DNA from: a virus
Virus record (IMG/VR): IMGVR_UViG_3300030110_004183
Coordinates: 1-44,256 of that record
Strand: one strand, 5' to 3'
Length of the DNA: 44,256 nucleotides
Positions 2,042 to 28,307 of this stretch are shown in pieces; the stretch's first letter is position 1; each line of letters starts with the position of its first letter. The notes under the pieces are model-generated. The model worked only from the letters and a program-made list of their open reading frames with translations. It did not search any database and was not told the origin of the DNA. The translations under genes were made by a program, and so were the position numbers.

Positions 2042-2074
2042 CCTAAAATAAGTAGATTAGTGTCTAGTTCCATC

Positions 2075-3862: not shown

Positions 3863-3864
3863 CC

Positions 3865-3952: not shown

Positions 3953-3972
3953 GGTCTGCGTTTTCGCTACAA

Positions 3973-6645: not shown

Positions 6646-6674
6646 TTCCCATTAACATATAACCTGACTTAGCT

Positions 6675-15600: not shown

Positions 15601-17831
15601 ACCTGAGACGAAGGCAACAAGTACCGCCTCCATTGCAGAAACTAATGGGCGTCTATGGCCCTGAAGCAGGTATAAATAATCTGGCACGCTCACTTACTGT
15701 TGTCACAGAGATGACAGCTAGACAGGCGTACTTCAATAACATAGCCGAACTAGGGGCTCCGAAAAGTGCCACCGATGAAGACGCATTCGTATTCACCCAT
15801 GCCCAGCTAACTAACCGTCCCGAACTAGACCCAGAGTCTTACGTCAATATGCGGACAGGAGAGGCATACGTTTATGGGGATAAAGTGCAAGCGACCACAG
15901 AGCTGGAGTCAACATACGACGAAACATATAACTACTATATCCGTGAGGATATGTTTGATGATCTGAAACGTATGTACTCGCCAGATGTTGCAGAGTCTAA
16001 CTTGTCTACATCTAAACAGAAACTCGCGTCGTTCGGTGAAGGCCTTAGGCTCTTAACGGGGGCCGCTCTTACCGCTAAAACTTTAGGCTCTGTAACGTTT
16101 TACCTGAGAAACGTTCTCGGTAACTTGTTCTTCTTCGCACCAGCCCAAGGTTTTGGCCCTGTGTCTATGGCTAAAATAGCTACAAGGTCCACAGATATTG
16201 GTCGCTCACTAAAAGACCCCAAGGCTTTCGACGAATATTATGCAGAGCTGACGGGATTGAATGTTATCGGGCAGGATCTTTATTCTTCTTTGATTAGAGA
16301 CCTGCTCAAGAAGCCTAAGAATGTGTCTTCTGTTCTCAAAGAAATTGAATCTTTAAATAAGATCGTTGAGAAATCGAAGGGACTTTCAGACAAAGTAGTA
16401 AAGCCTGTCATGGAAAGACTTCAGGCTCTTTCACAATCGGTTGATGCCTTCTACAAGATCGGGTACTACGAGCTGGAGAAAGAGAACCTGTTGAAAGCAA
16501 AGCAGTGGGACATAGATAACAACACAGATTCTATTGATGCGAACGCGCCAGCAGGATACCGGAGCCTCTCCGATTACGACCTTAAGTATCTTGCGGCCCA
16601 AAAGGTTCGTCGTACATCACAGTCGTATGCAGACGCTTACCACCTAGTTGAGAAGATAGGTAGGAGCGAGTACGCTTCTGTCGTTACCCCGTTCTTGCGG
16701 TTCAAAACCGAAGTCTTCCGCATACTAGAAAACACTTTCAAGCTGGCTAAACAAGAGCTAAAAAGCACCAACCCTGTCGTAAGGAGTAGAGGCGTAAGGC
16801 GCATAAGTGGAGTGTCCACTGTTATCCTTGGAGTGAGTGCTGGTCTCCCAACATTACTCGCTCACTTGGTGGGAATTGGCGAAGAAGAAGATGAACTTCT
16901 ACGAGGGTCGTCGCCAGAGTATAAGAGGTATAATACTTTCTGGTATAATCCTCAGTCCCTATTAGGTCTAAAGAGTAATGAGCTTAGCTCATGGGACATG
17001 ACTTTTGTTAATCCTTTTGCTATCAGCGTTGATCCTCTACTCCGTTTCTCGGAGCATGCGTATAGAGGTAATGTTGAAAGAGGGTTTGAAGAAGCATTCG
17101 GAAGCGTGGCCCAGACATTCATGGATGAGAATATATTCCTTAGTTCTGTAGTGGATGTGTCTAGGAATGTGAGGTCTGACACAGGAGGCCCGATAGCGGA
17201 AAAAGGAGAGGGGGCTGTGGGCTTTGCTAAGAAGTTAGGCTACGTCCTTTCAGAGGCTTACGCCCCTAGGACACCTACTAAATTAGCACAAGCCGCTTAT
17301 CAGGCTCTGTATGCAGGAGCATCTCCTGACCCTGCTAAATCAGCAAAGGCCCTTCTGATAGGGGAGATAGTCCCCGTTAAGCCATACAAGTATGATCCTG
17401 AGACCCACTTTCTCCGATACCTACAGAGAGCGCGGGACGAACGCAACCGTGCTTCTTCACTACGCAACATACTCAAATCAAAAGGGCAGTTGTCCGAAGG
17501 ACAGATTCGCAGGTCTATCCGCAAATGGATGAAGGTGAGGCGCGAAGTAGACCAGCGTATCTACACTACCTACTTGGGAGCACAAGGGCTGGGGCTAACA
17601 CCACGGCAAGCTAGAAGAGTGATGAGTGAGAAGTCTCTAGGCATGGGCAAGCGCAGACAGAATTACATTGTGAATGGGCGGAGGGAAAGAGATGTGTTCC
17701 CAACACCATTTATAGAACAAGTAATAGGCTTAACCCCTGATGGCGCGGTAGGTAGGCAAAGACTTAGGATCGCCCTTGATGAGATCCGCTTGTCTGGCCC
17801 AAGGATTCAAGCACTCGAAACGATAGATTAG
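6675..17831 (+). CDS. Giant large polyvalent protein (J-domain, metallopeptidase)
   Basis: 3,718 residues from a GTG at 6675. Segments in order: a helical N-terminus; a hydrophobic Ala/Gly-rich region (about 478-540) and two shorter ones near 645 and 775, possible membrane-active helices; a TQEQ repeat (about 880-895); a DnaJ-type J-domain (about 909-970) with HPD at 940-942; a charged coiled coil (about 1045-1075); an ADLAIIGAAYIARKV block typical of LPP-associated domains; HEYLH at 2205-2209 with downstream EE at 2262-2263, a zinc-metallopeptidase signature; a second, degenerate unit with EELGH at 2474-2478; a long helical region; and C-terminal hydrophobic helices (about 3120-3170, 3375-3400). 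Giant proteins like this are thought to be packaged and ejected into the host. The 3' end overlaps the opposing gene at 17764. Confidence 0.9.
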   Translation: MPELVNFKDWSATSELTDPVDLRIAHTDHLRESYFKEGSYNEEIERLLNGTLVDSLRTPVEQGGAGLENEQISEALNRPEPEPTFEEKERLVNSSGVVDFSSEDGAAIRSYNAFLKVKGSGEATNEFLAQEEELLANVTDVVNRNYNSAVDKLRADGASPFVRIANPEGGYFLKSGPAAEGLTTYEAYQQSVDAGFLTPRDIRGVQQAMTLYGDSGVALHKRAHYEDALLALNTALKSDQDITSFTNSIKRYVDRFKDSGDRVNAELNEELRADVVEELEYLLPDSSSIPLKDRLAAVEYMAGEMAMSGGTISFDDENLANNVRTYGYGDKVIHGDLLAKKSQFEESIAGFSEPEKEKLRLRRRTRLNGAMFNDFNEVINRTYLGTKWNEAVAQGLLDGKEEAEIFDEFFENNEYSEFRNETLGSVLRSIPDAFTDTVAALGVAATSAGGKEPNKLAQDTLLKNQRERAARARLANMMGDNVGWVTTLSSMIAPVTVDLGATAFLTATTGVGGAGYLALKSGAKLTAKGIATGIIAGSLKRQTVKGALETTEQAADRLLAKDLITSFGKKKKTFANKETREAFEKATAVDVIKKYNEVVAKRLVLEPAMLVPAATRSGGMTYASVYSALPDDMPSEERHQKALGAGLMASAVTASLVFGFRRIGMGGVEDFIVGRASVTQVREQLKRTVANTVTHRSSIQKLGQLPDDVYDAALAKIAADGIKSSWKNFVFTNAMLRHGKNFADEALEEGLDEFINSFIQTGFTGEDMPFSDRVTGAFIAAAYGGAFGLGMPVFRDTLGRTVRGSAVTSERAAKREVATRIAEEINTQRAKEAGQKLRDLDSPMTADAVQDIMDERERANIDPERATDPFYRSGPREPAQTQEQTQEQTQEQTEPSEITPVEEREKPQNVVEAYARLGVAVGATFAQIQTAYRNLVRTNHPDVNPAPEAEQVMQEINEAWDIIKKDAADQVVDAVSKAAPEQHEAAAEEEIIRTSGREGGQIVPVTQVKVPTPIEIEDYFRDLSAQVLTRPDPDPSDLITVEALEREEAEEAEAREEADKAREEAEKARRGSMPSLNTNQLAAIKSSLPADLYQRLLDNKVKYSNRPFVASSSTTDVTEEEYALIIDALEKRKNKLLNNPPKGELTLTSLNKKLKSFGVTVKKSSTVNPTTGEPVGLIFGGKPTQIADVNDQPFNYWVTEAHANVVGALTYAPSPTVAEEQALIDEAGNEADAQEELKISDEDLQDYAEKATEAGVDAEAAVEVLRAVAENEASVSEETDESLEEDEGPITKTESVARRLEQMAEQRRKDRSERGTTFNLGVDPTDLADLAIIGAAYIARKVANFEAWVKKLLSDPNVSFTEKELKPHLRDIFAESKRVFREEFNASEDTAENDPDSIEGDIEENVEYPDVYANRVLRDRIRELVHQHVRSGIPVKITKEKPYGFPDAAFNANTLLGEGGTRTRKWTRDALNTTINNRIKKLYPVLTVNEAVKAAKTVGLTEAQSNKLMVGVGKPSLLKNKEANRKSGALYEFDTAFGVFNNNPISVRALLKKKMIVRVPDSYIKNGEYIGNPAIAVVEKFDSLTNRKIFFAVDVEIPVEGAEFTKRSAVYGDSLLTDLPAYLEGHLKINEVTGYPSFYLNAELGKTNEDGDPVGEQLIVFNSEKDKEARGGPLAPLNALFAKEYSSIVQGKPTSEFGFAVRRILNVGVTSEESATLRALALAEVYTTLQKRTQLFTYHPSYRKRTVTVEGDQKVVTIHEIDPEVSTEELSSQIEPESMVYYKPTARFRKPLPVGEKVNSLENKAAFLLKYGFPDNKDRPKITTTPNSVTLVENWPEVTIRAFFGKEARDYLAYTKEGSDPAVTNLYAIIRDAGSRARKRLQDRRGLLFPDISTISYDASQTITEFETSQQELASEQGIDQQDLPIATEAQIQEFGVGNLTGDEVQALWRTATINASDMESAAKAIRVGVRNYLRERGPDTVAKQKLFTDALRRVVDAVEGDAAPPHILAQTQPAPIFEHLLNVARRNHASDPLVLRLKEAIAKEEVLNNWEAINLISNFSPMLRTIDSETGMLKRPEITEEVARGVLSKLGVNNAPSIFIGKKLQYYRRKNQFTVNRLGLVSGDSSSVIDALNKIKKSSRNRQHRLVAELLLRDPDLISRVRFSIYDVQDGSAGNYTTFADGSKMVSINLSGFYGQGVESVLLHEYLHAFTIDLLSKPDSELTPKQRGAKKRLEGLYKIASESRNPAAENLEFDHALSSLEEFIATFFSSSTFQSTLKSTQPKKEQRNLFRRIADAILDLFGIRSDAKFRDAFDDLVDFANIGNAQDQTTLFGDLETRIDRARARYRNVEKPDFMKSKSSGARFSPFGSEGGLEAGEMNAEQEAGIQALVEESLSSIPPSVAVSMVETADEVPSIFSGRSDEAFASVVVEKDGERVPVIYVVRENLVRGLFAKSAIVENELHLKGIMDSIIAEELGHIAEFKAIPLAELNTLIETFSATEFNEFVDEYTRNPDLRAALKQGIADNDLETMQQVMGEKLLSILKRVTRGYTTQEDVAFYESSPSTLRIMLRYIAGVFRRMSARYNLKKDNPELAVMINRMAHELRFLANGGAARARHMPFDPRNPNAGFDVITRRFDNSLNDIGDDTTPEQVIARFQGMFDTLELPLGVFSRGKYQGYTGMSALKFGDTDPRITEIKKKERAFINASEKLSNAKLAAFQKVRERYPQIDDALISRATGSSENVTVDPEFRQDLRESYWSWRKDLKARTDAGEAEAAGFTRENIKAKYRELVVAPMRKERERLQEEVRKDIDAARENIRQIAPDLADSVLELRLLLDAFSLVMKKTFGLEGKVMAKVESQVGVYLTRQYRVFEEEGFRDRIMSDKTTEAFTEAYEYMRRQWIKTQAKKIRAKARNEGESMTEEESLEKSKQELEQASDTGRDPIHAMMSTYLKAMEKRAKSEEYRLPKGVGRSLLNNLRRRQQVPPPLQKLMGVYGPEAGINNLARSLTVVTEMTARQAYFNNIAELGAPKSATDEDAFVFTHAQLTNRPELDPESYVNMRTGEAYVYGDKVQATTELESTYDETYNYYIREDMFDDLKRMYSPDVAESNLSTSKQKLASFGEGLRLLTGAALTAKTLGSVTFYLRNVLGNLFFFAPAQGFGPVSMAKIATRSTDIGRSLKDPKAFDEYYAELTGLNVIGQDLYSSLIRDLLKKPKNVSSVLKEIESLNKIVEKSKGLSDKVVKPVMERLQALSQSVDAFYKIGYYELEKENLLKAKQWDIDNNTDSIDANAPAGYRSLSDYDLKYLAAQKVRRTSQSYADAYHLVEKIGRSEYASVVTPFLRFKTEVFRILENTFKLAKQELKSTNPVVRSRGVRRISGVSTVILGVSAGLPTLLAHLVGIGEEEDELLRGSSPEYKRYNTFWYNPQSLLGLKSNELSSWDMTFVNPFAISVDPLLRFSEHAYRGNVERGFEEAFGSVAQTFMDENIFLSSVVDVSRNVRSDTGGPIAEKGEGAVGFAKKLGYVLSEAYAPRTPTKLAQAAYQALYAGASPDPAKSAKALLIGEIVPVKPYKYDPETHFLRYLQRARDERNRASSLRNILKSKGQLSEGQIRRSIRKWMKVRREVDQRIYTTYLGAQGLGLTPRQARRVMSEKSLGMGKRRQNYIVNGRRERDVFPTPFIEQVIGLTPDGAVGRQRLRIALDEIRLSGPRIQALETID
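9312..9359 (+). repeat. 12-bp tandem repeat encoding Q-T-Q-E
   Basis: Three full copies of CAAACCCAAGAG plus a partial one lie in frame in the giant gene, just before its J-domain. They encode a Gln/Thr/Glu linker and are likely variable in length between relatives. Confidence 0.85.
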
Positions 17832-18087
17832 TCATCATATCGAAAAGAGCAGGTTCCTCAAATACCTTATCCTCAAACTTACGTGCGGCTCTGGAAGCCT
17901 GTTCCGGCTTTAAACCGAAACAGGCTCCAGCTTCCCGCCATGTCATATCTAATTCGCGTTTAGCGATTAGCAGACCTAGCTTGCACCATTTGGTTCGGGT
18001 ACCATAGTCACATATCCAGTCCCAGTCTTTGCGGCTATACCGCATCAAGACTTGGCGTAGTGCCTTAGTTTTGTTTGCAACGTCCAT
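17764..18087 (-). CDS. 107-aa putative helix-turn-helix protein
   Basis: The last gene of the leftward block. The first possible ATG is at 18129, but MDVANKTKAL from 18087 overlaps the previous gene less and is preferred. The segment MTWREAGACFGLKPEQASRAARKF looks like a helix-turn-helix, suggesting DNA binding. The first half is rich in Trp, Arg and Lys. Its 3' end runs 68 nt into the 3' end of the giant gene on the other strand, so the two transcription units converge and overlap with no terminator between them. Confidence 0.6.
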   Translation of the reverse strand: MDVANKTKALRQVLMRYSRKDWDWICDYGTRTKWCKLGLLIAKRELDMTWREAGACFGLKPEQASRAARKFEDKVFEEPALFDMMTNLSFRVLESLGQTSGSHQGRS

Positions 18088-18319
18088 GTGGATCAGAGCT
18101 GTGGCCTTCGTCCATCTGATTGCTGGCATTATATGTAGACCGGAGCAGATGTATTATAGCCAACATAAGAGGCTCACCATCTGTTATGTCCATCCTTTCT
18201 CGTATAACACCATCAACAATCGGATGGGCGCGGTACTCGACCAGTTCATCTGAAACAAACATACCATCAACAAACATGGGTAACCCCATTGGTTCTATTA
18301 CCTGTACGTAATGTCTCAT
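18065..18319 (-). CDS. 84-aa protein of unknown function
   Basis: Its start codon directly follows the stop of the 83-aa gene. The N-terminal two thirds (YVQVIEPMGLPMFVDGMFV, DELVEYRAHPIVDG) look like a folded beta-rich protein. The C-terminus is polar and overlaps the next gene. No domain recognised. Confidence 0.55.
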   Translation of the reverse strand: MRHYVQVIEPMGLPMFVDGMFVSDELVEYRAHPIVDGVIRERMDITDGEPLMLAIIHLLRSTYNASNQMDEGHSSDPHGRCKQN

Positions 18320-18571
18320 CTAATCAATGATGGACAGTATGGTATCTTTTGTTTCCTGAACCACTGACTCATGCTCAAGGAACCTTTTATCTACTGAGGA
18401 TATAATAGCATCGACGAATCTGTTGAGTGCTACGGATATGTGCGGTCGCACACACCGGAAACTCCCAGTTGGCGTAAACACTATGATTGACCAGCCTGAG
18501 GCGTTGTCTTCTCGTCGGCTTTTTATTTCAACCAAGGCATCTCCTATTTGGATTTCGGCAGTTGTCTTCAC
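18320..18571 (-). CDS. 83-aa protein of unknown function
   Basis: It starts with GTG at 18571, one base after the stop of the 375-aa gene, so it is probably translated by re-initiation. It is a mixed beta/alpha sequence with no motif I recognise. Confidence 0.55.
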   Translation of the reverse strand: MKTTAEIQIGDALVEIKSRREDNASGWSIIVFTPTGSFRCVRPHISVALNRFVDAIISSVDKRFLEHESVVQETKDTILSIID

Positions 18572-18572
18572 T

Positions 18573-19700
18573 TTATACTAGTAGGGTTTCAGGCTCTTTT
18601 GATTCTTCAGAATAAACCTCGTCGTGAGGTGAAGTCAGTATGACTTCCCTGATCGTGTCGTTCAAGACTGCGAGCTGACCAATGTTTTCGGTGCATACCT
18701 GCACACCATACGGGGCAGATATTGGCAGACCAATCTTGTCGAACAGCTCTGCCAACGAGTCAAACCCTTCAAGGAGACTTTCCTCTGACTTCGTGTGGAT
18801 AGCCATAGCGCTGTACCACTCGTCATCGAAGAGGTAGGTTATTTTCTTATCAAGTCTGTCGAGTAGTCGATAGAGTTGATATGGTATCTTGGCTACGGAT
18901 ATCCCGAAACTAGCGTTACTTATTTTGTGTTCGGCGTTGTGTATCAGCTCGGCTAGTTTACTCACCTGCTCTTTCAAAGGGTCGAACAAGGATTTAGCTG
19001 CCTCGAAGTCTGAAGCAGATACTTTCTCGCGGATATCCGTGAGCTTACTATCTAGGTTAGTCAGGTTATCGAATGACACTGCTGTAAGACTAGAAGCGAT
19101 TTTGTTGTTACAGTCTGTCAAACGTTTCGCTGCATCAGTAATGGCATAAGCCCAAGCCCAGTCCCACCATTCGCGAACAGGCATGAGGAGGTCAAGGTCT
19201 TCTTTGGTCGGGACACTCCCGCTCAAAGTCCTAGCCCGCTCATATATGTTAGGCTCCATACAAGTCAGGAGAGTATCTCGGATCATACCGTACCGGTTTC
19301 TGAGCTTACGAGTATGAGGTTTTAGGATAGGCGGTTGCCCACCCCTAACTTGAACATGGACCCGATCACCGGCAATTGACTTGCACCATTTCTGACGGTA
19401 GTTGGAATTCCAATAGGCTTGTCTGACCGTTCGGTGCTCGTCGAATGCAATGTGCGTGAGAAGCACATCGTCTTCTATAACCGCCCCCATTATCCAATAT
19501 GGCTCAAGGGCATGGTAACGAGCATCACCTTCTTCTAGCATAACAGAAACTGGGAAATCGTTGGGGTCTTCTACACCATCAACGAATGTACCTGATTCCT
19601 GTCTCACGAATATTACACCATCAATACTGCGAAACGCACAACATGCGTATCTGCCGTATGGATCGTCCGCCAACTTCTCAAAGAATGTTTGTATCTTCAT
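18573..19700 (-). CDS. 375-aa protein of unknown function
   Basis: A soluble protein. The N-terminal 130 residues look globular and aromatic-rich. The middle (about 190-300) is helical with probable coiled-coil stretches (LTDIREKVSASDFEAAKSLF), and the C-terminus is acidic. No catalytic motif or membrane segment was found. It follows the VWA gene by 18 bp with an A-rich leader and no Shine-Dalgarno. Its position directly downstream of the AAA+/VWA pair suggests, without proof, that it is a client or adaptor of that system. Confidence 0.7.
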   Translation of the reverse strand: MKIQTFFEKLADDPYGRYACCAFRSIDGVIFVRQESGTFVDGVEDPNDFPVSVMLEEGDARYHALEPYWIMGAVIEDDVLLTHIAFDEHRTVRQAYWNSNYRQKWCKSIAGDRVHVQVRGGQPPILKPHTRKLRNRYGMIRDTLLTCMEPNIYERARTLSGSVPTKEDLDLLMPVREWWDWAWAYAITDAAKRLTDCNNKIASSLTAVSFDNLTNLDSKLTDIREKVSASDFEAAKSLFDPLKEQVSKLAELIHNAEHKISNASFGISVAKIPYQLYRLLDRLDKKITYLFDDEWYSAMAIHTKSEESLLEGFDSLAELFDKIGLPISAPYGVQVCTENIGQLAVLNDTIREVILTSPHDEVYSEESKEPETLLV

Positions 19701-19718
19701 TTCGTTTTACTTTTTATT

Positions 19719-20993
19719 TTATACTGCTTGGTCAATTAGTTCATTCATGTTGACTACCTGACCAAAAGGGAAGCCATCATCTTCCAGACCGTATGTCACC
19801 CACAAGGTCGGGATACTTGGTTCTTCTTCAGGGAACACGCCGTATCCATCAGTGAAGTAGATAACGACTCGCGCTTCCTCAAGATTGTTTTCGATGAAGT
19901 CAAACGCAGGTCGGAAGTCTGTCCCTCCTCTGCCTTTAGCTTCTGCGGGGATCTCATCGTGAGGCCCGAACTCTTCAACGTGTTGCACCTCGGCGTCTAC
20001 ATCCATCACGATAAGGCGTCGTGGTCGGAGCTTGGTGGAAGCTCCCTGCACAATGCTGACAACAGACTCTAGGATATCTTTGTTTATACTACCGCTAGTA
20101 TCCTTGACGAATACCAACGTGCCATGCTGCTCGTCTTCCATACCTGTGATACAGATATCGTGATAGGCTAAGTAGCGTTTGTCTGCACGGATTGATTCAT
20201 CTGACAAACAGAACTCTGTGGTGTACTTATCCAGCAGGGCATCCAGATCAAGGGGAGGCTCTAGTAGTTCTCCAAGCTTCTCGATGAACTTACCCCCACC
20301 CTTACCACGTAACTTCGCAGTCTGGATAGTGCTGGTCAAGATCTCCTTCCACTTGTCGGATAGCTCCTTCGCCTTGGCAGAACTTTTAGCAGGTTCAAAT
20401 TCACCAGAGGAGTAGGGCTGACGTTGCGGTTGCCCGTTGCCGGAACCTTTGCCTTCCTTGTCCCCTTCTTGAGGCGAGTCCTGATCACCCTCCCCATCAG
20501 TGGGGTTGTCACACTCCCCATCGGGATTGGGGTTAGTCGGCGGTGGGGGTGGCGGTTTCGGGGTATCCTCGAAGAGTTTCCTGATGATAACCTCTGCTGC
20601 CAGAGTGCCATACTTCTCGACATCAACATGAGCTTCGGGTGGTAATACAATGGGGAAGGTAGCCTCCTCGTTGTATATGGTTACGAAGTTATTGATCTCG
20701 TAGTCCGCACCGACGTTGGTGAGATGGGCGTCAGTCTGAAACTGAGTAGCCAATCTTGTGAGGTGATCCAGTAGAGGATGCAATACCTCATGGACGATTA
20801 GTCCAACTGTCTGTTGGATATTCAGCGTGTCCACAAACTGGGCACCATATCTAATATGTTCCCCATTTGTACATGCTGTGAGACTCGGATCATCAACAAT
20901 AATATCCTCTAGCGCAGCTAGTGCTGGCATGAGAATGTCGTGATGATTCGCGATGATGTTCTTCGCTTTCGCGATCTTGTCTTTTGCTTTCAT
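19719..20993 (-). CDS. VWA-like metallopeptidase (DUF2201 type)
   Basis: 424 residues. The N-terminal domain has IVHEVLHPLLDH with HExxH at 68-72 and TNGEHIRYG upstream, as in the DUF2201 putative metallopeptidase domain. A Pro/Gly/Asp-rich linker (about 144-200) follows. The C-terminal VWA-like domain has the metal-ion-dependent adhesion site: DTSGS at 298-302, GRGGTDF at 354-360 and FTDG at 380-383, ending with the typical PFGQVV block. Such proteins are encoded next to MoxR/CobS-type AAA+ ATPases, as here, and are thought to work with them in remodelling or metal insertion. The role in phages is unknown. The first 101 nt overlap the 119-aa gene in another frame. Confidence 0.88.
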   Translation of the reverse strand: MKAKDKIAKAKNIIANHHDILMPALAALEDIIVDDPSLTACTNGEHIRYGAQFVDTLNIQQTVGLIVHEVLHPLLDHLTRLATQFQTDAHLTNVGADYEINNFVTIYNEEATFPIVLPPEAHVDVEKYGTLAAEVIIRKLFEDTPKPPPPPPTNPNPDGECDNPTDGEGDQDSPQEGDKEGKGSGNGQPQRQPYSSGEFEPAKSSAKAKELSDKWKEILTSTIQTAKLRGKGGGKFIEKLGELLEPPLDLDALLDKYTTEFCLSDESIRADKRYLAYHDICITGMEDEQHGTLVFVKDTSGSINKDILESVVSIVQGASTKLRPRRLIVMDVDAEVQHVEEFGPHDEIPAEAKGRGGTDFRPAFDFIENNLEEARVVIYFTDGYGVFPEEEPSIPTLWVTYGLEDDGFPFGQVVNMNELIDQAV

Positions 20994-21252
20994 GTTTATT
21001 TTCTTTTCTGTGTATTTCAGTGAAACGTTTTACCGTGTCTCTATGGTCGCGGAGTAACTCATCCGCTTCCTTAGATAGTTTAACGTTCCCGCTCCCAGCC
21101 CCGACAATGTGGGTGCTGCCTACATCTCGTAGCCAGAAATAGAATGCGGCTACAAGTGGGTCGGTAGCTGACCACATAATCATGGGGCAGGATGCGTGAT
21201 TCAGGATACAGTGAATCAGATTAGCTGATCTTTCCTGAGAGTTCGTCGGCAT
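20893..21252 (-). CDS. 119-aa protein in a long overlap with the VWA gene
   Basis: It bridges the gap between the AAA+ and VWA genes. It overlaps the AAA+ 3' end by 32 nt and continues 101 nt into the VWA gene in another frame. Residues 1-85 look like a normal folded protein (LIHCILNHASC, LVAAFYFWLRDVG, ELLRDHRDTVKRF). The last 30 or so residues are a Lys/Arg/His/Ser-rich tail imposed by the overlap. Gene order and composition of the first part support it as real. Function unknown. Confidence 0.55.
   Translation of the reverse strand: MPTNSQERSANLIHCILNHASCPMIMWSATDPLVAAFYFWLRDVGSTHIVGAGSGNVKLSKEADELLRDHRDTVKRFTEIHRKENKHESKRQDRESEEHHRESSRHSHASTSCARGYYC
21023..21032 (-). promoter_or_regulatory. 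AAACGTTTTA motif copy
   Basis: Lies inside the 119-aa gene, coding for VKRF, about 30 bp upstream of the VWA start codon. TAAAACGTTT reads on the transcribed (minus) strand, flanked as GTAAAACGTTTCAC, the same 14-mer as at 26628. Confidence 0.55.
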
Positions 21253-22303
21253 GCTTGACCCGCCACTTTACGAGGGCTTGGGTCTTTAGCAAGTCTTTCT
21301 TGATTCGTCCAATGGAGTTGCCAACGAAGGACTCCATCATGTCAAGATTACTAGGATTGTTCATGCTGGGATCTGTCAGGCGATGCGCCAAGACCAGAAC
21401 CTTGTCGATGTTATCCTTGTTTGACAATGCAATGGATCGACATGCAACAAGCCACTTGATGTCTGGCTCATGCGGGATACTGCAACGATCAGCATCCTCG
21501 ATCATCTTGTTCACATCACCCACTCTGCTGGTGAGCTTGAGGAACGATGTGTACATTTCTCCATACTTAGGACCGACACAAGACGTAGCATGAGCACGGA
21601 ACAGAGGATCGGCCACGGCTTCTGATATGTCATCATAACTGTCAGTCAGTTCGTCCAGTCGGGAGAATGACCTGAAGGTAGGTAAGTTAGACTCACCGTC
21701 CCACTCCTTGATCTTGAAATCATACGGAGCAGAAGGGTTGGAGTTCAGGAATGCCAAGAGGTATGGCGTCTTACCATGATTCATCAGGTAGTTCTGATAG
21801 GAGTCAAAGTCAGGACGTACACGATAGAACGCTACCCTGTCAGCCAATGCCGCCAGCCAACGCTCAACCCCTGTCTTGTGGGCCAGCATGTTGGTTGACC
21901 CCATGACGAAGGTATCTTCAGGGAAGAAGAACTTACCCACCCGCTTCTCCAGAAGCATCTGCATGAGAACCTTCTGAGTCTGGGGACTGACCAAACCAAT
22001 CTCCTCCAGATGGAGGACATTCATTGCGCCATCTTTGAAGTCGAGGTCTTCGTCAGCGTAGAACTTCATACGCTGCTCCTCATGATTGGGGATCCCGAAC
22101 CCACGAACGTCGTTAAACGTTTTATAGGCTCCACGATAGTCGATGTAATGAGCTTCCTTTCGAGCGGCCCACAACGCGGCTTGCATTGATTTACCCAAGC
22201 CGTAGAAGGACTGAAAGACGGGGGCCTTTTTATTCCCTGCCTTGTGGTTGCGGTCCAGTACTGCGGGCATATCGTCTGATGTGATTTCTATGTGATGTGA
22301 CAT
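21221..22303 (-). CDS. MoxR/CobS-type AAA+ ATPase with variant Walker motifs
   Basis: 360 residues. SFYGLGKS (32-39) is a Walker A loop whose first Gly is replaced by Ser; the GKS core is kept. VLHLEEIG (96-103) stands where Walker B should be, with Glu-Glu in place of Asp-Glu. GSTN at 135-138 is the sensor-1 Asn, and an Arg-rich segment ADRVAFYRV follows. The C-terminal 200 residues are helical. The order DUF3150-like, AAA+, VWA is the known arrangement of phage MoxR/VWA cassettes. It probably forms a hexamer that uses the VWA protein as partner. Whether the altered motifs still hydrolyse ATP is open. Confidence 0.75.
   Translation of the reverse strand: MSHHIEITSDDMPAVLDRNHKAGNKKAPVFQSFYGLGKSMQAALWAARKEAHYIDYRGAYKTFNDVRGFGIPNHEEQRMKFYADEDLDFKDGAMNVLHLEEIGLVSPQTQKVLMQMLLEKRVGKFFFPEDTFVMGSTNMLAHKTGVERWLAALADRVAFYRVRPDFDSYQNYLMNHGKTPYLLAFLNSNPSAPYDFKIKEWDGESNLPTFRSFSRLDELTDSYDDISEAVADPLFRAHATSCVGPKYGEMYTSFLKLTSRVGDVNKMIEDADRCSIPHEPDIKWLVACRSIALSNKDNIDKVLVLAHRLTDPSMNNPSNLDMMESFVGNSIGRIKKDLLKTQALVKWRVKHADELSGKIS
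22115..22124 (-). promoter_or_regulatory. AAACGTTTTA motif copy
   Basis: Inside the AAA+ ATPase gene, coding for YKTF. It is in the same orientation as most copies, with TAAAACGTTT on the minus strand. Confidence 0.5.
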
Positions 22304-22368
22304 ATCTTTTGTTTTGTTTTCTATTTTCTTCTCGCGTGATCAACGGATGCGCGGCCCCCGACTGTTTG

Positions 22369-23298
22369 TTACATAAGAGAATTAGCAATCTCCTTGGCTT
22401 GCTGACTGATGTCAGTCGCCACGATCTTGGATGACTTGATACTGTCTGAGTCTATGCCCCGCAACATATGCCGTGCTTGGTCAATAGCTCCTTGCAGCTT
22501 CATGTCACCGTCAATCATCATTGATGGTAGGATGTCGCAGAGTTCCACAACTTTCTCCAGATTGGACTTGCGGAATGCCGTGCCTTCATCACCTGCTACG
22601 GCGCACCGCTTTGAGAGATGAGTGAGCTTGTCGTAGAACCTGTTACGAAGATCTTGCGAGATCTCTGCACGACGGCGCTCATCTTCCTCTTCCCACATTT
22701 CACGTAAGTCATGAGGGAGATCCTCTGCTCCACCTAACGGGCCAAAGGTAATGCTGAGGTTGAAGTTTCGGAGAACTCCATCACGATCATCTTCTGCCGG
22801 ATACAGGTGAGCATACTTCGCGAAGTCCCCGTTCAGCCTTTTCTCAGAGTTCCTTCTGATCTCAGGCCATTTGTCGAGGAAGGCGTCTACTTTCTCCTGC
22901 CATCCCATCCTACGTTTTGTGATGTATTCCTGCATCTTAGGGATCATGAGCGGAGCTACCCGCCGATTACCACCGTCATCCCAAGGGGAAGAGTAATGCT
23001 TGATACCCTCCCTTGTTTTAGCCACATGGCTGGTGATCTCCTTGAGGTATTCCTTCTTGATGAGCTTAGTAGTCATCTCGTTCGCATCAATGTCAGTCCC
23101 ATGCTTCTCAGCATATTCCCGTTCACCTGCTTTGTTCTTCCTTCTCTTATCAAAGGATGAAGCGGAGATGTTAATTGTTGCTCCGATGCTGAGGCCACTA
23201 GGCTCTTGCTTTTGTTCCCTCTGCTGCTCTGCCGTCTTGCGGACGGTCTGTCTTTGTGGTGTTGTAGTTTGCACTTTGTCTGTGTGTTTTTGTTTCAT
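22369..23298 (-). CDS. DUF3150-like partner of the AAA+/VWA module
   Basis: 309 residues: a basic Gln/Lys-rich N-terminus (1-50), then a long helical charged protein. The region INISASSFDKRRKNK, a central PEIRRNSEKRLNGDFAKYAH and later EEEDERRRAEISQDLRNRFYDKL match what I know of DUF3150, a phage family found beside MoxR ATPase and VWA genes. I rely on this pattern plus gene order, not on an alignment. It is the first gene after the promoter at 23361-23389. A 20-bp perfect palindrome ends one base before its ATG, exactly where a ribosome-binding site would be, so expression is probably controlled there. Confidence 0.65.
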   Translation of the reverse strand: MKQKHTDKVQTTTPQRQTVRKTAEQQREQKQEPSGLSIGATINISASSFDKRRKNKAGEREYAEKHGTDIDANEMTTKLIKKEYLKEITSHVAKTREGIKHYSSPWDDGGNRRVAPLMIPKMQEYITKRRMGWQEKVDAFLDKWPEIRRNSEKRLNGDFAKYAHLYPAEDDRDGVLRNFNLSITFGPLGGAEDLPHDLREMWEEEDERRRAEISQDLRNRFYDKLTHLSKRCAVAGDEGTAFRKSNLEKVVELCDILPSMMIDGDMKLQGAIDQARHMLRGIDSDSIKSSKIVATDISQQAKEIANSLM

Positions 23299-23318
23299 GC
23301 AGTAAAACGTTTTACTGC
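23299..23318 (-). promoter_or_regulatory. 20-bp perfect palindrome, candidate operator at a start codon
   Basis: GCAGTAAAACGTTTTACTGC is a perfect 20-bp inverted repeat abutting the ATG at 23298. It contains the AAACGTTTTA decamer on both strands. It lies about 40 bp downstream of the -10 box, so a bound protein could block elongation, or the RNA hairpin could mask the start. The AAACGTTT core resembles LacI/GalR-family operators. Confidence 0.7.
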
Positions 23319-23360
23319 TAACTTGTAGTTTTGATTAGGGTCTTTCCTAACCATAACTAT

Positions 23361-23389
23361 ATTATACCAAATAAAGTATATATTGTCAA
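23361..23389 (-). promoter_or_regulatory. Consensus sigma-70 promoter, leftward
   Basis: Reading the minus strand: TTGACA (23389-23384), 17 bp, TATAAT (23366-23361), a perfect match to the consensus. The sequence upstream of the -35 (AAAGAAAAGTA then TTGACA) is shared with the promoter at 26718-26746. The predicted start near 23354 gives a leader of about 55 nt ending in the 20-bp palindrome. Confidence 0.9.
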
Positions 23390-23421
23390 TACTTTTCTTT
23401 ATAGATCGAAAGATATATTAA

Positions 23422-23778
23422 CTATCTTTTTATAGTCATGTTATCGACGAAGGGCATCATTGGCCCCGTCCCACGACGTTTCTGAGGTTTGCTACTGTGA
23501 GCGGGGCTCTTGGGTTCAACCCACCAGCTCCCATACTTCTGATATACATTGAAGCCAAGATCATATTGTTCTGATATTTGGTTCATACGTAACTTAGTTG
23601 TAGGCGTGAGCCACGATTCCCCGTCGGGGTCTGTGGCGTTTAGCTTCACCTCATGGTCGGTGAACTCCACGATAATGGTATCGTGATATTGTACACCAGT
23701 CCGCTTACCGTTCTTGTCTGATAGATCAATGACGGTCGTCGCTACTTTCCCTTTAAAGGGATTTTTTGTTATCTTCAT
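23422..23778 (-). CDS. 118-aa protein of unknown function
   Basis: A beta-rich N-terminal part, then SWLTPTTKLRMNQISEQYDLGFNVYQ and KYGSWWV, a block I recognise from small uncharacterised phage proteins, and a basic Pro-rich tail (KPQKRRGTGP). It overlaps the upstream gene by 26 nt. No function can be assigned. Confidence 0.65.
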   Translation of the reverse strand: MKITKNPFKGKVATTVIDLSDKNGKRTGVQYHDTIIVEFTDHEVKLNATDPDGESWLTPTTKLRMNQISEQYDLGFNVYQKYGSWWVEPKSPAHSSKPQKRRGTGPMMPFVDNMTIKR

Positions 23779-24139
23779 GCTTCAGGATAATCTCATCTTG
23801 TCTTTTTAATTCGGCGGTCAGCTTTTCATTAGCCTCCCGTTCTCTACGTAGTTCTTCCCGTAGCTCGATAAGTGGTAGCTGCTGCTTCGCCAAACGTTTT
23901 ATAGCGGGCATCCACTGCCTGACATCAATGATCTTTCCCATACGACGTTTGATTGTGGTCTTCTTTTTATCCTCAGGTAAAGGATCAAAAGGATTCCATA
24001 CAGGAGTCAGGTTCACGGGTTCTTTCTTCTTTATCTTCGCGTGCAGGTCAGGATCCCTGAGATGCACTACGTGGTTTCTCTCCCTACGTTTGTTGGGGGA
24101 CTTGCGCTTAGGACCAAGGTCCAGTTGTTTGCTTTTCAT
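23753..24139 (-). CDS. Basic coiled-coil protein, 128 aa
   Basis: An upstream ATG at 24181 is possible. I prefer 24139 because it has an A-rich leader like its neighbours. The N-terminus is Lys/Arg-rich (KRKSPNKRRERN). The C-terminal third is a clear coiled coil (LREELRREREANEKLTAELK). It is probably a nucleic-acid-associated or scaffolding protein. No enzyme motif. Confidence 0.6.
   Translation of the reverse strand: MKSKQLDLGPKRKSPNKRRERNHVVHLRDPDLHAKIKKKEPVNLTPVWNPFDPLPEDKKKTTIKRRMGKIIDVRQWMPAIKRLAKQQLPLIELREELRREREANEKLTAELKRQDEIILKHEDNKKSL
23891..23900 (-). promoter_or_regulatory. AAACGTTTTA motif copy
   Basis: Inside the basic coiled-coil gene, coding for IKRL. Together with the YKTF, CKTF and GKTF copies, it shows that the motif is kept in more than one reading frame. 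Confidence 0.5.
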
Positions 24140-24227
24140 TGTGTGTTGCTTGTTGTGCGTTACTTGATTCTCCACGCCCATATGGACAAGAGAGTAAGGA
24201 GTGTGATGGTCAGGATCATTTCATGTT

Positions 24228-24884
24228 TCAGTTTTGGTTGTTTGTCTTGTCGTGAAAGCGGACATTCTCAGGATCATGCACATACTTCATGGCATCTTCC
24301 TTGAGAACACGGGGGATCTTACCCTCTAATATATCGTCGAGCAGAACAGGTCGGTAGCCCACTGCCTCATGCGAGAGCAGGAACCAGCGTTCGTCTTTCT
24401 CATCCTGCCATGCTGACTCCTCATCACGGTGGTTGCGAAGATGCAGGTGGCCGTGAATGTTAAGGTCGATGCCATCAGGAAGATCCAAACACGGTCCCCA
24501 GCTTAAACGTCTCATGGGGTGGTGACTGAATAAGATATTCTGACCCCCATACTCCAGTGTCATAGTCTCCATTGCAGCAGTAAACCCGTGCTGGATGTAG
24601 TAGGAGTAAGGCTGGTTGTCATGGTTACCCAGCAGCAGGATCTTACTCCGCGCTGGGCATCGGTTCATGATTTCAGATGCAGCTATACCATCGCGCCATG
24701 CTTCAGTAGAACTCTTAGCAAAGGCGAAGTCTCCCAAGTGAATGAGAATATCGTCAGGCCCCAGTTTACTGAGGGCTTCTGCTGTCCGTTCGTTGTGGTC
24801 AGGAGGGCGAACGCCCCGTCTCACGATTCCTTTGTGGAAGAAGTGGGTGTCAGTGACTACCCATATTCTTGATGTTAGTTTCAT
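24228..24884 (-). CDS. Calcineurin-like metallophosphoesterase
   Basis: 218 residues containing the complete metallophosphoesterase motif set: DTH (D12, H14), GDF (D52), GNHD (86-89), SHHP (120-123) and GHLH (145-148). These bind two metal ions. Phage members act as phosphodiesterases or phosphatases on nucleotides, nucleic acids or proteins; the substrate cannot be read from the sequence. It lies within the early leftward block, between a zinc-ribbon protein and a basic coiled-coil protein, preceded by an A-rich leader without a Shine-Dalgarno. Confidence 0.93.
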   Translation of the reverse strand: MKLTSRIWVVTDTHFFHKGIVRRGVRPPDHNERTAEALSKLGPDDILIHLGDFAFAKSSTEAWRDGIAASEIMNRCPARSKILLLGNHDNQPYSYYIQHGFTAAMETMTLEYGGQNILFSHHPMRRLSWGPCLDLPDGIDLNIHGHLHLRNHRDEESAWQDEKDERWFLLSHEAVGYRPVLLDDILEGKIPRVLKEDAMKYVHDPENVRFHDKTNNQN

Positions 24885-24903
24885 ACTTCAGTTTGTTTGG
24901 TGA

Positions 24904-25311
24904 TTACTTGTATTGCATTCTCATAGCGTTGTGGTCTTTGATGATCCTGCGTATGCCAAGCTGGGCCTCGTGATCTCCACTTACGAGGTCTGCGCCACAG
25001 TGCATGCATTCTATTTCGGTAGGCAGGAAACAGGAGTAGTCGAAGTATACTCTGTCATTGCAGCATGGGCATACTATGGACATGGTCGCTCCTTCCCAGC
25101 ATTCACCGTCGCATCCTCGATGGGCAACGAGGTCGAGGCTTTTGTGATACGCGGTATCCATTTCTGGATATGTTTTCACAAGGTCTGTGAATCCCATAAG
25201 GTATTCATAGGCCTCAGTGAATCCCGTGCATATTTCACAAGCAAACGTTTTACACGCTTGTTCTTCTGTCATGGGTATTGCGACCTTTCGATATGTTTGC
25301 GGTTCGCTCAT
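24904..25311 (-). CDS. Zinc-ribbon protein, 135 aa
   Basis: The start at 25311 (MSEPQTYRK) follows the previous stop by one base; an ATG 12 nt upstream would overlap it. A helical first half contains several Cys (CKTFACEIC). The second half has CPCC and CMHC about 20 residues apart, a zinc-ribbon arrangement. It probably binds nucleic acid or a protein partner. No catalytic domain is visible. Confidence 0.65.
   Translation of the reverse strand: MSEPQTYRKVAIPMTEEQACKTFACEICTGFTEAYEYLMGFTDLVKTYPEMDTAYHKSLDLVAHRGCDGECWEGATMSIVCPCCNDRVYFDYSCFLPTEIECMHCGADLVSGDHEAQLGIRRIIKDHNAMRMQYK
25243..25252 (-). promoter_or_regulatory. AAACGTTTTA motif copy
   Basis: Inside the zinc-ribbon gene, coding for CKTF. 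A shorter AAACGTTT lies 70 bp away at 25322-25329, at the end of the neighbouring gene. Confidence 0.5.
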
Positions 25312-25312
25312 G

Positions 25313-25591
25313 TTACTTGTCAAACGTTTGAGTGTTAAACGAGTTCTTTGTGTTTACCCCATACTCATCGTAAGTATCTGGGTCATCGTCAAAGTATGCT
25401 TCAGTGTATCGGAAACCGTTACGGTGGGTCTGGCTTGGCCGGACCTGATCGGAGCGGACTGTCACCCACCCCGTCGTATAAGTCCCCCAAGGGTGCTCTT
25501 TTGCTTCAAAGAGAGAGGCTTCTCTCTGGGTAGCAAACAGTATCAAACCTTGTGGTTCTTCTCCCGTTTGGATTTCTAATAGTTTCTTCAT
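25313..25591 (-). CDS. 92-aa protein of unknown function
   Basis: A mixed alpha/beta small protein (LLEIQTGEEPQGLILFATQREA then TTGWVTVRSDQV) with an acidic C-terminal third (FDDDPDTYDEYG). The start overlaps the previous stop (ATGA). It is somewhat like small phage proteins involved in host takeover, but nothing specific can be claimed. Confidence 0.6.
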   Translation of the reverse strand: MKKLLEIQTGEEPQGLILFATQREASLFEAKEHPWGTYTTGWVTVRSDQVRPSQTHRNGFRYTEAYFDDDPDTYDEYGVNTKNSFNTQTFDK

Positions 25592-25770
25592 GACTTCTTC
25601 CTCTCGAATGCTTGGTCAAGGGCTGCACGGAACGGGGCCAAGGGTGCGGGTTGCACCCTTGGCTTAGGCTTACTGATGAGATCAACAGCATCAGCCTTGC
25701 GTTCCTCGATAGACAGATTGGACTGATCGTCCTTGTCCCACTTCTTGTTGATTAGTTCTTCAAGGCTCAT
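25588..25770 (-). CDS. 60-aa protein of unknown function
   Basis: A small charged helical protein (MSLEELINKKWDKDD) with a Pro-rich second half. It is supported by tight packing: 3 bp after the previous stop and an ATGA overlap with the next gene. Confidence 0.55.
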   Translation of the reverse strand: MSLEELINKKWDKDDQSNLSIEERKADAVDLISKPKPRVQPAPLAPFRAALDQAFERKKS

Positions 25771-25773
25771 GGT

Positions 25774-25947
25774 TCAGGAATCAGGGTTCGATATGCGTTT
25801 GGCTAAACGGGCACGCTCTTTCTTTGCGCCTTTGTTCTTGCCGTTAATCTTATCCAGTCTCTTGAGCTGGGCCGAATCAGTCCGCGCATCACGGTCTGCT
25901 TGTCTTTTGTCTGCACGTTCTTGCCGTGCTATTTTACTTTGTTTCAT
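25774..25947 (-). CDS. 57-aa highly basic protein
   Basis: The start at 25947 overlaps the stop of the 254-aa gene as ATGA, which fixes it better than an upstream start. About half of the residues are Lys, Arg, Asp or Gln; it is probably a single long helix that binds nucleic acid. Function unknown. Confidence 0.55.
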   Translation of the reverse strand: MKQSKIARQERADKRQADRDARTDSAQLKRLDKINGKNKGAKKERARLAKRISNPDS

Positions 25948-26708
25948 TTGTTTCTTGCGTGCTTGGCATAGAGCCAAGGGTTAGCATCAACATGGTGCCG
26001 CATCACAGGGCGCGGCTTGTCATCCTTGGAAATCTTCTGGCGCTCTGCTGCCATGCGCTTGTCGATAGTGGACAAGCTCTGGGCTTTGCGGATTGAGTCT
26101 TTGCCAGCTTGCTCGTTTGTAGGGGGCGGGGTTCGCGTTCCCTCTGGCTCGACGGGCTGATCAGGGACGGGGCGTATCCCCATGAGCTTGCCGTCTTCAA
26201 CCTCATAAACATCAGGGTGCTGTTCACAGTATTGCATGAAACGTTTAAACCCTCCACGCTTTGCCAGTATCTTGTCACCCTCTTGCTTGATGTCCCGCCG
26301 TCTGCGACACAAGGCGTGCCACATCTCCAAGGCATGGCGGTATACAGCAGCGGGGTCGGGGATTTCTATCTTCTCAACAGGAGCATTGGGGTAAACCTCG
26401 TTGGGGGTGAGCCGGATAGAATTGATGTCCTCGCTATACTTTTCGTAATACCGCCTAGCGGCTGCCTTGCTCCTCAGGAGCAGGTTGGCATATCGTTGCC
26501 ACTTTTGCTGTGGGGTGAGACCCCCGCGCCTTGGCCCTTGTGACGGGGGCTTGGGGGTGTAGGGTAGGAGTTCAACATAATCACCGTCCCGCTTGGAAGG
26601 GGAAGGGAGCTTGTTATGTTTTGCGTGAAACGTTTTACCGGAATCCAACAGTCGTTGGATCGGCTCGTTCGCCAACGCTTTTGCTTTTGTTTCAGGGTGT
26701 TCTCTCAC
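25944..26708 (-). CDS. 254-aa basic protein, first gene of the leftward block
   Basis: Starts with GTG at 26708, only about 3 nt downstream of the predicted transcription start of the promoter at 26718-26746, so the mRNA looks leaderless or nearly so. The protein is basic and Pro-rich with helical stretches (WQRYANLLLRSKAAARRYYEKY, HALEMWHALCRRRRDIKQEG). No domain recognised. As the first early gene it could be a host-takeover or replication factor, but the sequence does not show which. Confidence 0.7.
   Translation of the reverse strand: MREHPETKAKALANEPIQRLLDSGKTFHAKHNKLPSPSKRDGDYVELLPYTPKPPSQGPRRGGLTPQQKWQRYANLLLRSKAAARRYYEKYSEDINSIRLTPNEVYPNAPVEKIEIPDPAAVYRHALEMWHALCRRRRDIKQEGDKILAKRGGFKRFMQYCEQHPDVYEVEDGKLMGIRPVPDQPVEPEGTRTPPPTNEQAGKDSIRKAQSLSTIDKRMAAERQKISKDDKPRPVMRHHVDANPWLYAKHARNK
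26239..26246 (-). promoter_or_regulatory. Shorter AAACGTTT motif
   Basis: An 8-bp core match with flanks TGAAACGTTTAAAC, inside the 254-aa gene. Other 8-bp matches lie at 19120-19127 and 25322-25329 in the same block. Confidence 0.35.
26628..26637 (-). promoter_or_regulatory. AAACGTTTTA motif copy
   Basis: Inside the first codons of the 254-aa gene, coding for GKTF. It lies about 80 bp downstream of the promoter, with flanks GGTAAAACGTTTCACG on the minus strand. Confidence 0.55.
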
Positions 26709-26717
26709 TGTATAAGA

Positions 26718-26746
26718 AGTATAACATAAATATAGTGTTTTGTCAA
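26718..26746 (-). promoter_or_regulatory. Near-consensus sigma-70 promoter, leftward
   Basis: Reading the minus strand: TTGACA (26746-26741), 17 bp, TATACT (26723-26718). It drives the whole leftward block. Upstream it shares AAAGAAAAGTA with the promoter at 23361-23389. The predicted start falls within a few bases of the GTG at 26708. Confidence 0.9.
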
Positions 26747-26793
26747 TACTTTTCTTTTAGGTAACTAATTTATTTTCAGTGAGTTATAGGCGT

Positions 26794-26882
26794 GGACGAG
26801 GGCTATTTTGGACGAGTGTTACCATCAGGGTTGATATTCGTAGTTGGGATATAATGCGCGGACGAGGGTTAGTGTGGACGAG
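26794..26882 (+). repeat. GGACGAG direct repeats (two pairs)
   Basis: Copies at 26794, 26810, 26860 and 26876, that is two pairs each with 16-bp spacing, with pairs 66 bp apart. Most continue as GGACGAGGG(C/T)TA. A TATAAT lies at 26850-26855 between the pairs but without a good -35. Confidence 0.8.
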
Positions 26883-26895
26883 GGTTATTCTCGTG

Positions 26896-26905
26896 AAACG
26901 TTTTA
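26896..26905 (-). promoter_or_regulatory. AAACGTTTTA motif copy, intergenic
   Basis: Flanks GTGAAACGTTTTATAGGATC. It is followed by a 56-bp GATC/GAATC-rich stretch and then by the next copy at 26962. Confidence 0.6.
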
Positions 26906-26961
26906 TAGGATCTGTGGATCCTGAATCAGGGATCGGGAATCATGGATCAGGGATTGTGGTA

Positions 26962-26971
26962 AAACGTTTTA
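26962..26971 (-). promoter_or_regulatory. AAACGTTTTA motif copy, intergenic palindrome
   Basis: TAAAACGTTTTA at 26960-26971 is a 12-bp palindrome, so the decamer is present on both strands, as at 23303-23314. Confidence 0.6.
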
Positions 26972-26981
26972 TGAGATCTGA

Positions 26982-27013
26982 CACGCGGACTGGCACGCGG
27001 ACTGGCACGCGGG
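26982..27013 (+). repeat. 12-bp tandem repeat
   Basis: Two full units CACGCGGACTGG (26982-26993, 26994-27005) and a partial third unit CACGCGGG. It lies immediately before the first terminator. Confidence 0.85.
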
Positions 27014-27021
27014 TTAAAACG

Positions 27022-27056
27022 AAAAAGCCCGCGCCCCCATATGCGGGAACGCGGGC
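27022..27056 (-). terminator. Intrinsic terminator, leftward (second of two)
   Basis: A 7-bp perfect stem, GCCCGCG (27027-27033) with CGCGGGC (27050-27056), plus inner CCC/GGG pairing. On the minus strand it is followed by five T residues (27026-27022). It lies downstream of the terminator at 27065-27095 for the gene at 27108-27731. Confidence 0.85.
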
Positions 27057-27059
27057 ACA

Positions 27060-27095
27060 AAAATCCCCCCTTACCCATTTTCAGGGTAAGGGGGG
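27060..27095 (-). terminator. Intrinsic terminator, leftward (first of two)
   Basis: A 12-bp perfect stem, CCCCCCTTACCC (27065-27076) with GGGTAAGGGGGG (27084-27095), 7-nt loop, then ATTTTT on the minus strand. It ends the transcript of the gene whose stop is at 27108. Confidence 0.9.
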
Positions 27096-27107
27096 AAGGG
27101 TTAGGGG

Positions 27108-27731
27108 TTAGGCCTTGGCGGTCTTCTCAGAAGCTTTTTTATCGGCTTTCCGGTTATCAGAAATAGACTTCAAGAGCGACCACAGTTCCGCAATGTCCAT
27201 GCTGCTCAGCTGATCTTGGAAATTGACGATCAGAGCGCGGATTTCCGCAACGGGGGGAGCCTTATCTGAGGCCTTCTTCCCTTTCGGCTTAATCCCTGAC
27301 TTGATGTCGGTGATGAACTTCAGAGCGTCCTTCTCCTTCAGATCCTTTGGACCTTCAACAGAAGAGTTCTCCTTTGCCAGTGAGATGGCCATTGCCATCT
27401 CACGGGAAGTCCCCACCTTGCTAAAGTCAGGGGCCTTGGGATTGCCTTTCGTCCGCTCCATGGCGATCCCCGCAAAGGGAACCTTAGGATTAGAAGCGGC
27501 AATCAGACCCGTGAGCACGGCGCCAGAAGCGTCTCTCAGATAATGAGCACAAAGCAGATAGTCACACTCTCCGCGCTGGCGGACCTTGTAACGTTCAAAT
27601 GCTAGTTCGTCCACTATCTTACCGCCCCGTGAGGCAATGGACTTGATAGCCTTCTTTTCAGCTTCAGTGAACTGCGAGGTCTCCTCAACAATAGAGGAGC
27701 TATCCTTTTTCTTCAGTATGGTTTCAGCCAT
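27108..27731 (-). CDS. 207-aa protein of unknown function
   Basis: The ATG at 27731 is preferred to a GTG 24 nt upstream, because MAETILKKKDS is a more natural N-terminus. It has a charged N-terminus, a central globular part (GKIVDELAFERYKVRQ, GECDYLLCAHYLRD, GAVLTGLIAAS), and a Lys/Ala-rich tail after about residue 145 with a helical segment (MDIAELWSLLKSISD). No catalytic motif. It is a single-gene leftward unit closed by two strong terminators, so it is probably regulated independently of the early block. A small DNA-binding or SSB-like role is possible but unsupported. Confidence 0.7.
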   Translation of the reverse strand: MAETILKKKDSSSIVEETSQFTEAEKKAIKSIASRGGKIVDELAFERYKVRQRGECDYLLCAHYLRDASGAVLTGLIAASNPKVPFAGIAMERTKGNPKAPDFSKVGTSREMAMAISLAKENSSVEGPKDLKEKDALKFITDIKSGIKPKGKKASDKAPPVAEIRALIVNFQDQLSSMDIAELWSLLKSISDNRKADKKASEKTAKA

Positions 27732-27921
27732 ACATGGAAAGGGAGCAACCGGCACGTTTTCCCATGAAACGTTGCATCAGAATCCCGCACCCTGAATCGT
27801 GATCCATGAATCATGACCCACGCCACGGGGGTGGGGGGCATTTTTTTCCCACACGCTGTATGTGTGTGGTGTGTTCTGTGAAAAAATTTGACAAATGCTC
27901 AATTTCGGGATTCGCTGCGTA
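27732..27921 (+). other. Divergent intergenic region
   Basis: 190 bp between divergent genes. It contains AACGTT at 27768-27773 and GATC/GAATC words (27782-27818) like those at 26907-26958, a CACAC/GTGTG hairpin near 27851-27869, and a TTGACA at 27888-27893 without a good -10 for the rightward gene. I see no convincing promoter for the leftward gene. Confidence 0.5.
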
Positions 27922-28203: not shown

Positions 28204-28219
28204 ACGCATTTGCAAATCC

Positions 28220-28307
28220 CAACTCAAAAAGTCCTCCCCATTTATATATGGTACTAATGATCTTATCAATAGTACCAAGGGTATATAGGAAGGAGTTTTT
28301 AAGTTCA
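28220..28307 (+). repeat. 88-bp hairpin element, copy B
   Basis: Gapless partner of 3865-3952. It keeps AACTCAAAAAGT at the left end, GGTAC and GTACC inner arms, the central AATGATCTTATCA, and GGAGTTTTT near the right end. The outer stem is one pair weaker than in copy A. Like copy A it lies just after a gene and just before a TTGAC-containing promoter candidate. Confidence 0.8.

Follow-up and report, generated by a model that had tools for sequence, protein, structure and literature searches.

The DNA analysed here is the virus record IMGVR_UViG_3300030110_004183 ("the window" below means all 44,256 bp of it). It carries a leftward, early-type gene block to the left of a control region at about 27 kb, and copies of an 18-bp palindrome, predicted to be operators, lie both inside and between the genes of this block; an earlier note on this DNA had already claimed dispersed sites there. 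A second record, G001 (IMGVR_UViG_3300030109_004835, 63,358 bp), overlaps the window at 99.7-99.9% identity and is treated as equal to the window phage in the comparisons. The block is common to four distinct phages, G001, G002, G008 and G033, of which G001 and G033 are near-complete; further relatives of the block were sought, and just these four turned up. Reading leftward from 27.1 kb, the order is terminators, 12-bp repeats, two operators (three in G033), further repeats, the promoter P1, an operator and the gene block. The features are listed below from right to left, with a strand where one applies. Scores in bits are from a position weight matrix (PWM) built from the 37 in-block sites of the four phages, with a site threshold of at least 14 bits.

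27108-27755, minus strand: 215-aa gene beside the control region; G033 has an operator at its start, degenerate here
27027-27096, minus strand: two strong leftward terminators, isolating the control region from the neighbouring gene (27108-27755); kept in G033
26978-27013: three tandem 12-bp repeats (CTGRCACGCGGA), adjoining the upstream operators; five in G033
26957-26974, core 26962-26969: predicted operator, 20.6 bits, with a palindromic decamer, upstream of P1; two to three equivalents in G033, 23 bp apart
26891-26908, core 26896-26903: predicted operator, 19.8 bits, upstream of P1
26790-26903: GGACGAGGG-type repeats, between the upstream operators and P1 (CTCGTCCAC-type when read leftward); G033 has CTCGTCCACA three times
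26718-26746, minus strand: predicted promoter P1, TTGACA-17-TATACT with extended -10, at the start of the leftward block; its G033 equivalent is a 12/12 promoter at 424-452
26623-26640, core 26628-26635: predicted operator by PWM, 83 bp downstream of the P1 -10
25944-26708, minus strand: 254-aa gene that opens the P1 unit, shared by G001 and G033 alone
26234-26251, core 26239-26246: weak predicted operator, 12.4 bits; core conserved in G033
25317-25334, core 25322-25329: predicted operator, 20.7 bits, directly before an ATG; identical 18-mer in G008
25238-25255, core 25243-25250: predicted operator, 16.0 bits, within a gene
23887-23904, core 23892-23899: predicted operator by PWM, within a gene; retained in G008 but lost from G002 and G033
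23361-23389, minus strand: predicted promoter P2, TTGACA-17-TATAAT (12/12) with extended -10; equivalents in G033, G002 and G008
23299-23318: best predicted operator, a 20-bp perfect palindrome (GCAGTAAAACGTTTTACTGC), 24.6 bits, downstream of P2 and directly before the ATG at 23298
22110-22127, core 22115-22122: predicted operator, 21.7 bits, within a MoxR-like ATPase gene; identical at all 18 bases in G002 and G033
21018-21035, core 21023-21030: predicted operator, 22.5 bits, 30 bp before the start of a VWA-domain gene; a perfect palindrome at the same place in G002 and G033, kept in G008
19115-19132, core 19120-19127: outlying predicted operator, 19.6 bits; core not kept in G033

The repeated element had originally been described as a decamer, AAACGTTTTA. 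All nine of its places are found (2926, 21023, 22115, 23305, 23892, 25243, 26628, 26896 and 26962), the fifth having been given one base too low, as 23891. Eight of them are inside 21.0-27.0 kb, and there are no copies to the right of 26971. Two are palindromic, reading as AAACGTTTTA on the reverse strand as well (at 23303 and 26960). The window has 11 strand hits, compared with 0.10 expected from dinucleotide shuffles, and in a count of 10-mers AAACGTTTTA is the commonest canonical one. No additional decamer was found in the approximately 19 kb of G001 that lie beyond the window. The core, AAACGTTT, occurs 14 times in the window (0.82 expected) and is the commonest palindromic 8-mer of the 63-kb record G001. 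Within the coding sequence of the block it occurs eight times, compared with 0.44 after synonymous-codon shuffling, and none of 3000 shuffles reached eight. Chance or codon usage as the source of the motif is ruled out by the dinucleotide, Markov and codon shuffles. Protein conservation is not the cause either, since the VWA gene is present in G024 and G026 too, and yet neither has AAACGTTT; it is the DNA rather than the protein that is conserved, as had been proposed.

The decamer is nevertheless not the unit. Comparison of the four phages shows that what is conserved is an 18-bp palindrome, CAGTYAAACGTTTRACTG, around the core AAACGTTT. The 37 in-block sites have the consensus YNRTN-AAACGTTT-NAYNR, with CAGTYAAACGTTTRACTG as the best form. 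The core, with its central CpG, is invariant across sites, and the flanks are well conserved in the block (T at -6 in 35/37, A at +6 in 31/37, C at +7 in 32/37). The two positions at +/-5 are complementary in 18 of 37 sites, which is beyond chance (permutation P = 0.005). The nine out-of-block sites, as a group, have no conserved flanks. At the threshold of 14 bits, G001 has 10 PWM sites (0.10 expected), G033 has 17, G002 and G008 have five each, and motif-less relatives have 0-2. Positions are conserved as well: the core is intact at seven of nine aligned G033 sites, whereas for 8-mers of the aligned block in general the figure is 26%. Where the flanks change between relatives they change symmetrically and the core is kept, as at 21023, where GTGAAACGTTTTAC becomes GTCAAACGTTTGAC, and at 23305, where GTAAAACGTTTTAC becomes GTTAAACGTTTAAC, so that the relatives carry full palindromes at these shared positions.

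These criteria also sort the remaining copies. Among the shorter cores listed in the earlier note, those at 19120 and 25322 belong with the sites and that at 26239 does so weakly; the list had missed 8475 and 14158. The copies outside the block, namely these last two and the decamer at 2926, which had been counted as a site, are probably due to chance because the conserved flanks are absent. A scan of 2.9 million viral contigs with CAGTNAAACGTTTNACTG returned eight contigs, three of them motif phages; the other five have one or two AAACGTTT cores each in the stretch examined, and these are taken as chance.

The sites had been likened to the asymmetric stoperators of mycobacteriophage L5, six of the eight clustered copies having one orientation relative to transcription. 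The palindromic consensus and the symmetric changes between relatives do not fit an asymmetric site. The orientation bias is peculiar to the window phage: the half-site TAAAACGTTT is on the left in 8 of its 11 sites and on the right in 2, 2 sites having both, whereas among the 17 sites of G033 the numbers are 4, 6 and 1.

Inverted repeats could also act in the transcript, as hairpins in leaders or intergenic mRNA. Many sites do lie a few bases before start codons, and the related G011 has repeated intergenic elements that resemble true hairpins. However, seven of eight sites fold no better than shuffles, the stem cells are paired only 70% of the time, the mid-stem pair does not form in 16 of 31 sites, and the core shows no variation at all; covariation with conserved base pairing is thus not seen. 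The copies upstream of P1 are moreover probably untranscribed, and there is no Rfam match. The hairpin explanation is largely refuted, and we consider it very improbable. The G011 elements themselves (L101; 5622, 7862, 8650 and 9501) are four intergenic copies of GTCGAAACG followed by a variable stem, with loops such as GCAA, GCGA and TTCG, and then CGTCCGG. They look like covarying RNA hairpins, and are possibly an undescribed phage RNA element.

The positions of the sites relative to the promoters are informative. P1 and P2 match the extended sigma-70 consensus at 11-12/12, and no other promoter match of 10/12 or better in these genomes has an extended -10. The 83 bp between the -10 of P1 and its operator is the same in G001 and G033. 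From the -10 of P2 to the operator core there are 49 bp in the window phage and 55 bp in G033, G002 and G008. Many of the downstream sites of G033 lie directly before start codons.

On the basis of these observations we hypothesise that a DNA-binding protein peculiar to this phage subclade binds the palindromes CAGTYAAACGTTTRACTG as a dimer. Transcription of the block would start at the two strong leftward sigma-70 promoters, and protein bound directly downstream of each would repress initiation. The copies 190-255 bp upstream of P1 could take part in DNA looping with the downstream operators; since they lie behind two terminators, they probably act as DNA and not as transcript. The copies before or inside successive genes would be roadblocks to RNA polymerase, halting early elongation along the operon. 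From the sequence data we put the probability that the sites are operators of such a protein, repressing both early promoters and blocking elongation, at about 0.58. The stoperator-like proposal of the earlier note holds for the many dispersed sites, their conserved positions and the early-type block, and does not hold for the asymmetric, orientation-dependent L5 type. Protein binding, encoding of the protein by the phage, and repression by looping or roadblock rather than activation are what we infer.

Several points weigh against this reading. No operator overlaps a -35 or a -10, which is unusual for simple repression. The motif is known from only four phages, two of them near-complete. Models for HTH_3, LacI, RHH_1, resolvases and integrases gave nothing convincing among the phage proteins, and the predicted structures of the 215-aa and 254-aa candidate proteins have a mean pLDDT (predicted local distance difference test) of about 50 and are unusable.

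The operators lying off the promoters, with copies upstream of P1, would also suit positive elements through which an activator or antiterminator acts on the early block. However, promoters as close to consensus as P1 and P2, with an extended -10, need no activator, and most sites are downstream of the promoters or inside genes, which makes such a role unlikely. A function in replication or partition (iterons, a centromere, condensation) is about equally improbable. It is suggested by the three kinds of short repeats in the control region and by the three G033 operators 23 bp apart. Against it, the sites extend over 6-12 kb of genes and keep fixed spacings to two promoters, DnaA boxes are absent from the control region, and the GC skew has no clean turning point specific to that region. 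Neither ParA nor ParB came to notice among the proteins scanned, although no search was aimed at them.

If a repressor is encoded by the phage, it is not an obvious one. The 215-aa gene beside the control region is a weak candidate for the regulator. The sole helix-turn-helix (HTH) hit is a TerS-like gene (1439-2041), which is not repressor-like. It is unlikely to be the binder, as in G011, which is motif-less although its sequence covers the block, the recognition helix is almost the same, with a single substitution. This gene is divergent from the terminase large subunit gene (2003-3862), overlaps its start, and heads a leftward replication operon. No tyrosine or serine integrase was found in the phages, and because neither a phage repressor nor an integrase was found, a lysogenic immunity system is only a possibility. 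The phage may have a plasmid-like prophage form.

Further evidence comes from relatives whose equivalent block, located between the giant gene and the genes on the portal side, holds different genes. These relatives show no excess of AAACGTTT. Two of them, G014 and G028, instead have seven and eight copies of a different 18-bp palindrome, TACTAGTGNNCACTAGTA, all within the syntenic block (L104 of G014, 5826-9171; L112 of G028, 9659-13156) and mostly 5-37 nt before an ATG. Order-2 Markov shuffles of these blocks gave at most three copies of any comparable palindrome. The block genes of G014 and G028 are unrelated to those of the motif phages. Because these two carry TACTAGTGNNCACTAGTA where the others carry AAACGTTT, the phages share a design but not a code. 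We tentatively suggest that this phage group has a swappable early block under multi-operator silencing, that the operators are read by a member of an undescribed family of DNA-binding proteins, and that block and operator code (AAACGTTT or TACTAGTGNNCACTAGTA) are exchanged as a cassette. Two operator codes at one genome position open operator turnover and the identity of the regulator to direct test.

The minus-strand gene leaders of the window (18065-26708) are A-rich and mostly without a Shine-Dalgarno-like GGAGG, as are those of G014 and G028. Pentanucleotide tandem arrays (ACTGG, ACCAG, ACCTG) lie in the block beside the portal-side genes in G026 (42354-42430), and likewise in the equivalent blocks of G012 and G013.

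The phage genome is about 62.9 kb, because the 63,358-bp record G001 has overlapping ends. Its remaining 19 kb or so, outside the window, code for replication proteins (a Strawberry-notch-like helicase, a DUF2800/PD-(D/E)XK nuclease, DNA polymerase A, DUF5906) and further structural proteins. The final 600 bp or so of the window (43660-44256) have no match in G001, which is either a local difference or an assembly end. An open reading frame of 3718 aa at 6675-17831 (3854 aa in G033) takes up about a sixth of the genome. An element of about 90 bp occurs twice in the window, after the terminase (3862-3955) and before a portal-side gene (28218-28307), the copies being about 80% alike; it is repeated in G033 too. 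The terminase, primase-like and portal-side proteins have no matches in 50,697 phage records. The terminase does match many marine-type viral contigs, from which we take the phage to be marine, an origin not read from a record. The sole cellular hint of a host is two 7-kb contigs of one Opitutae metagenome-assembled genome (MAG), a weak link.

The remaining explanation, and the main rival, is that the sites are operators of a host regulator of the LacI/GalR family, exploited by the phage to couple its early block with the metabolism of the host. The likeness to such operators noted earlier is real: the site is a palindrome, and AAACGTTT with its central CpG is a classic LacI-family core, to which RbsR of Serratia, a member of that family, reportedly binds (PMC5601083). 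The phages themselves encode no LacI protein (PF00356, none above cut-off), in line with a host regulator. However, the Opitutae MAG has two LacI proteins over the cut-off and yet no copies of RTNAAACGTTTNAY in 3.2 Mb, and none of GTYAAACGTTTRAC; the link to Opitutae is itself weak, and close relatives found in samples of the same kind either are without the motif or have another palindrome. The sites are also strewn along an operon, unlike LacI/GalR operators, of which each promoter has one or two. A host protein of the LacI type is possible, but rather improbable.

A phage-specific repressor acting at dispersed operators may be compared with three known systems. In L5 and other cluster A phages, stoperators are short sites scattered in promoter regions and short intergenic spaces, proposed to stop both initiation and elongation; they are 13 bp, asymmetric, monomer-bound and orientation-dependent (PMC9283540). 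The likeness is in the many dispersed sites within one genome (10-11 in the window block, 17 in G033). However, the 18-bp palindrome without conserved orientation lacks two defining L5 features, and no phage-encoded HTH immunity repressor is recognised here. In SPbeta, a 15-bp motif, SPBRE, is read by MrpR, a protein with a tyrosine-recombinase fold (PMC10516654). There too one element, first seen in silico, is repeated at promoter and intergenic regions, and its reader was an unexpected protein; here the site is longer, and the PF00589 model of that fold has no hits in 11 records. The nearest match in design is phiC31, a proven temperate phage, in which conserved inverted repeats (CIRs) are bound by the c repressor. 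Both systems have several inverted repeats, nearly identical to one another, in the early region and between genes, although the sequences are unrelated and no phiC31-type repressor homologue was recognised here in Pfam/PHROG scans of most proteins, none of them aimed at that repressor. To our knowledge, dispersed-operator control is documented for few phages, and the present case, seen from sequence alone, would add an uncultured, presumably marine phage group. We file it as a variant of dispersed-operator control, closest in design to the phiC31 inverted repeats and to SPBRE/MrpR.

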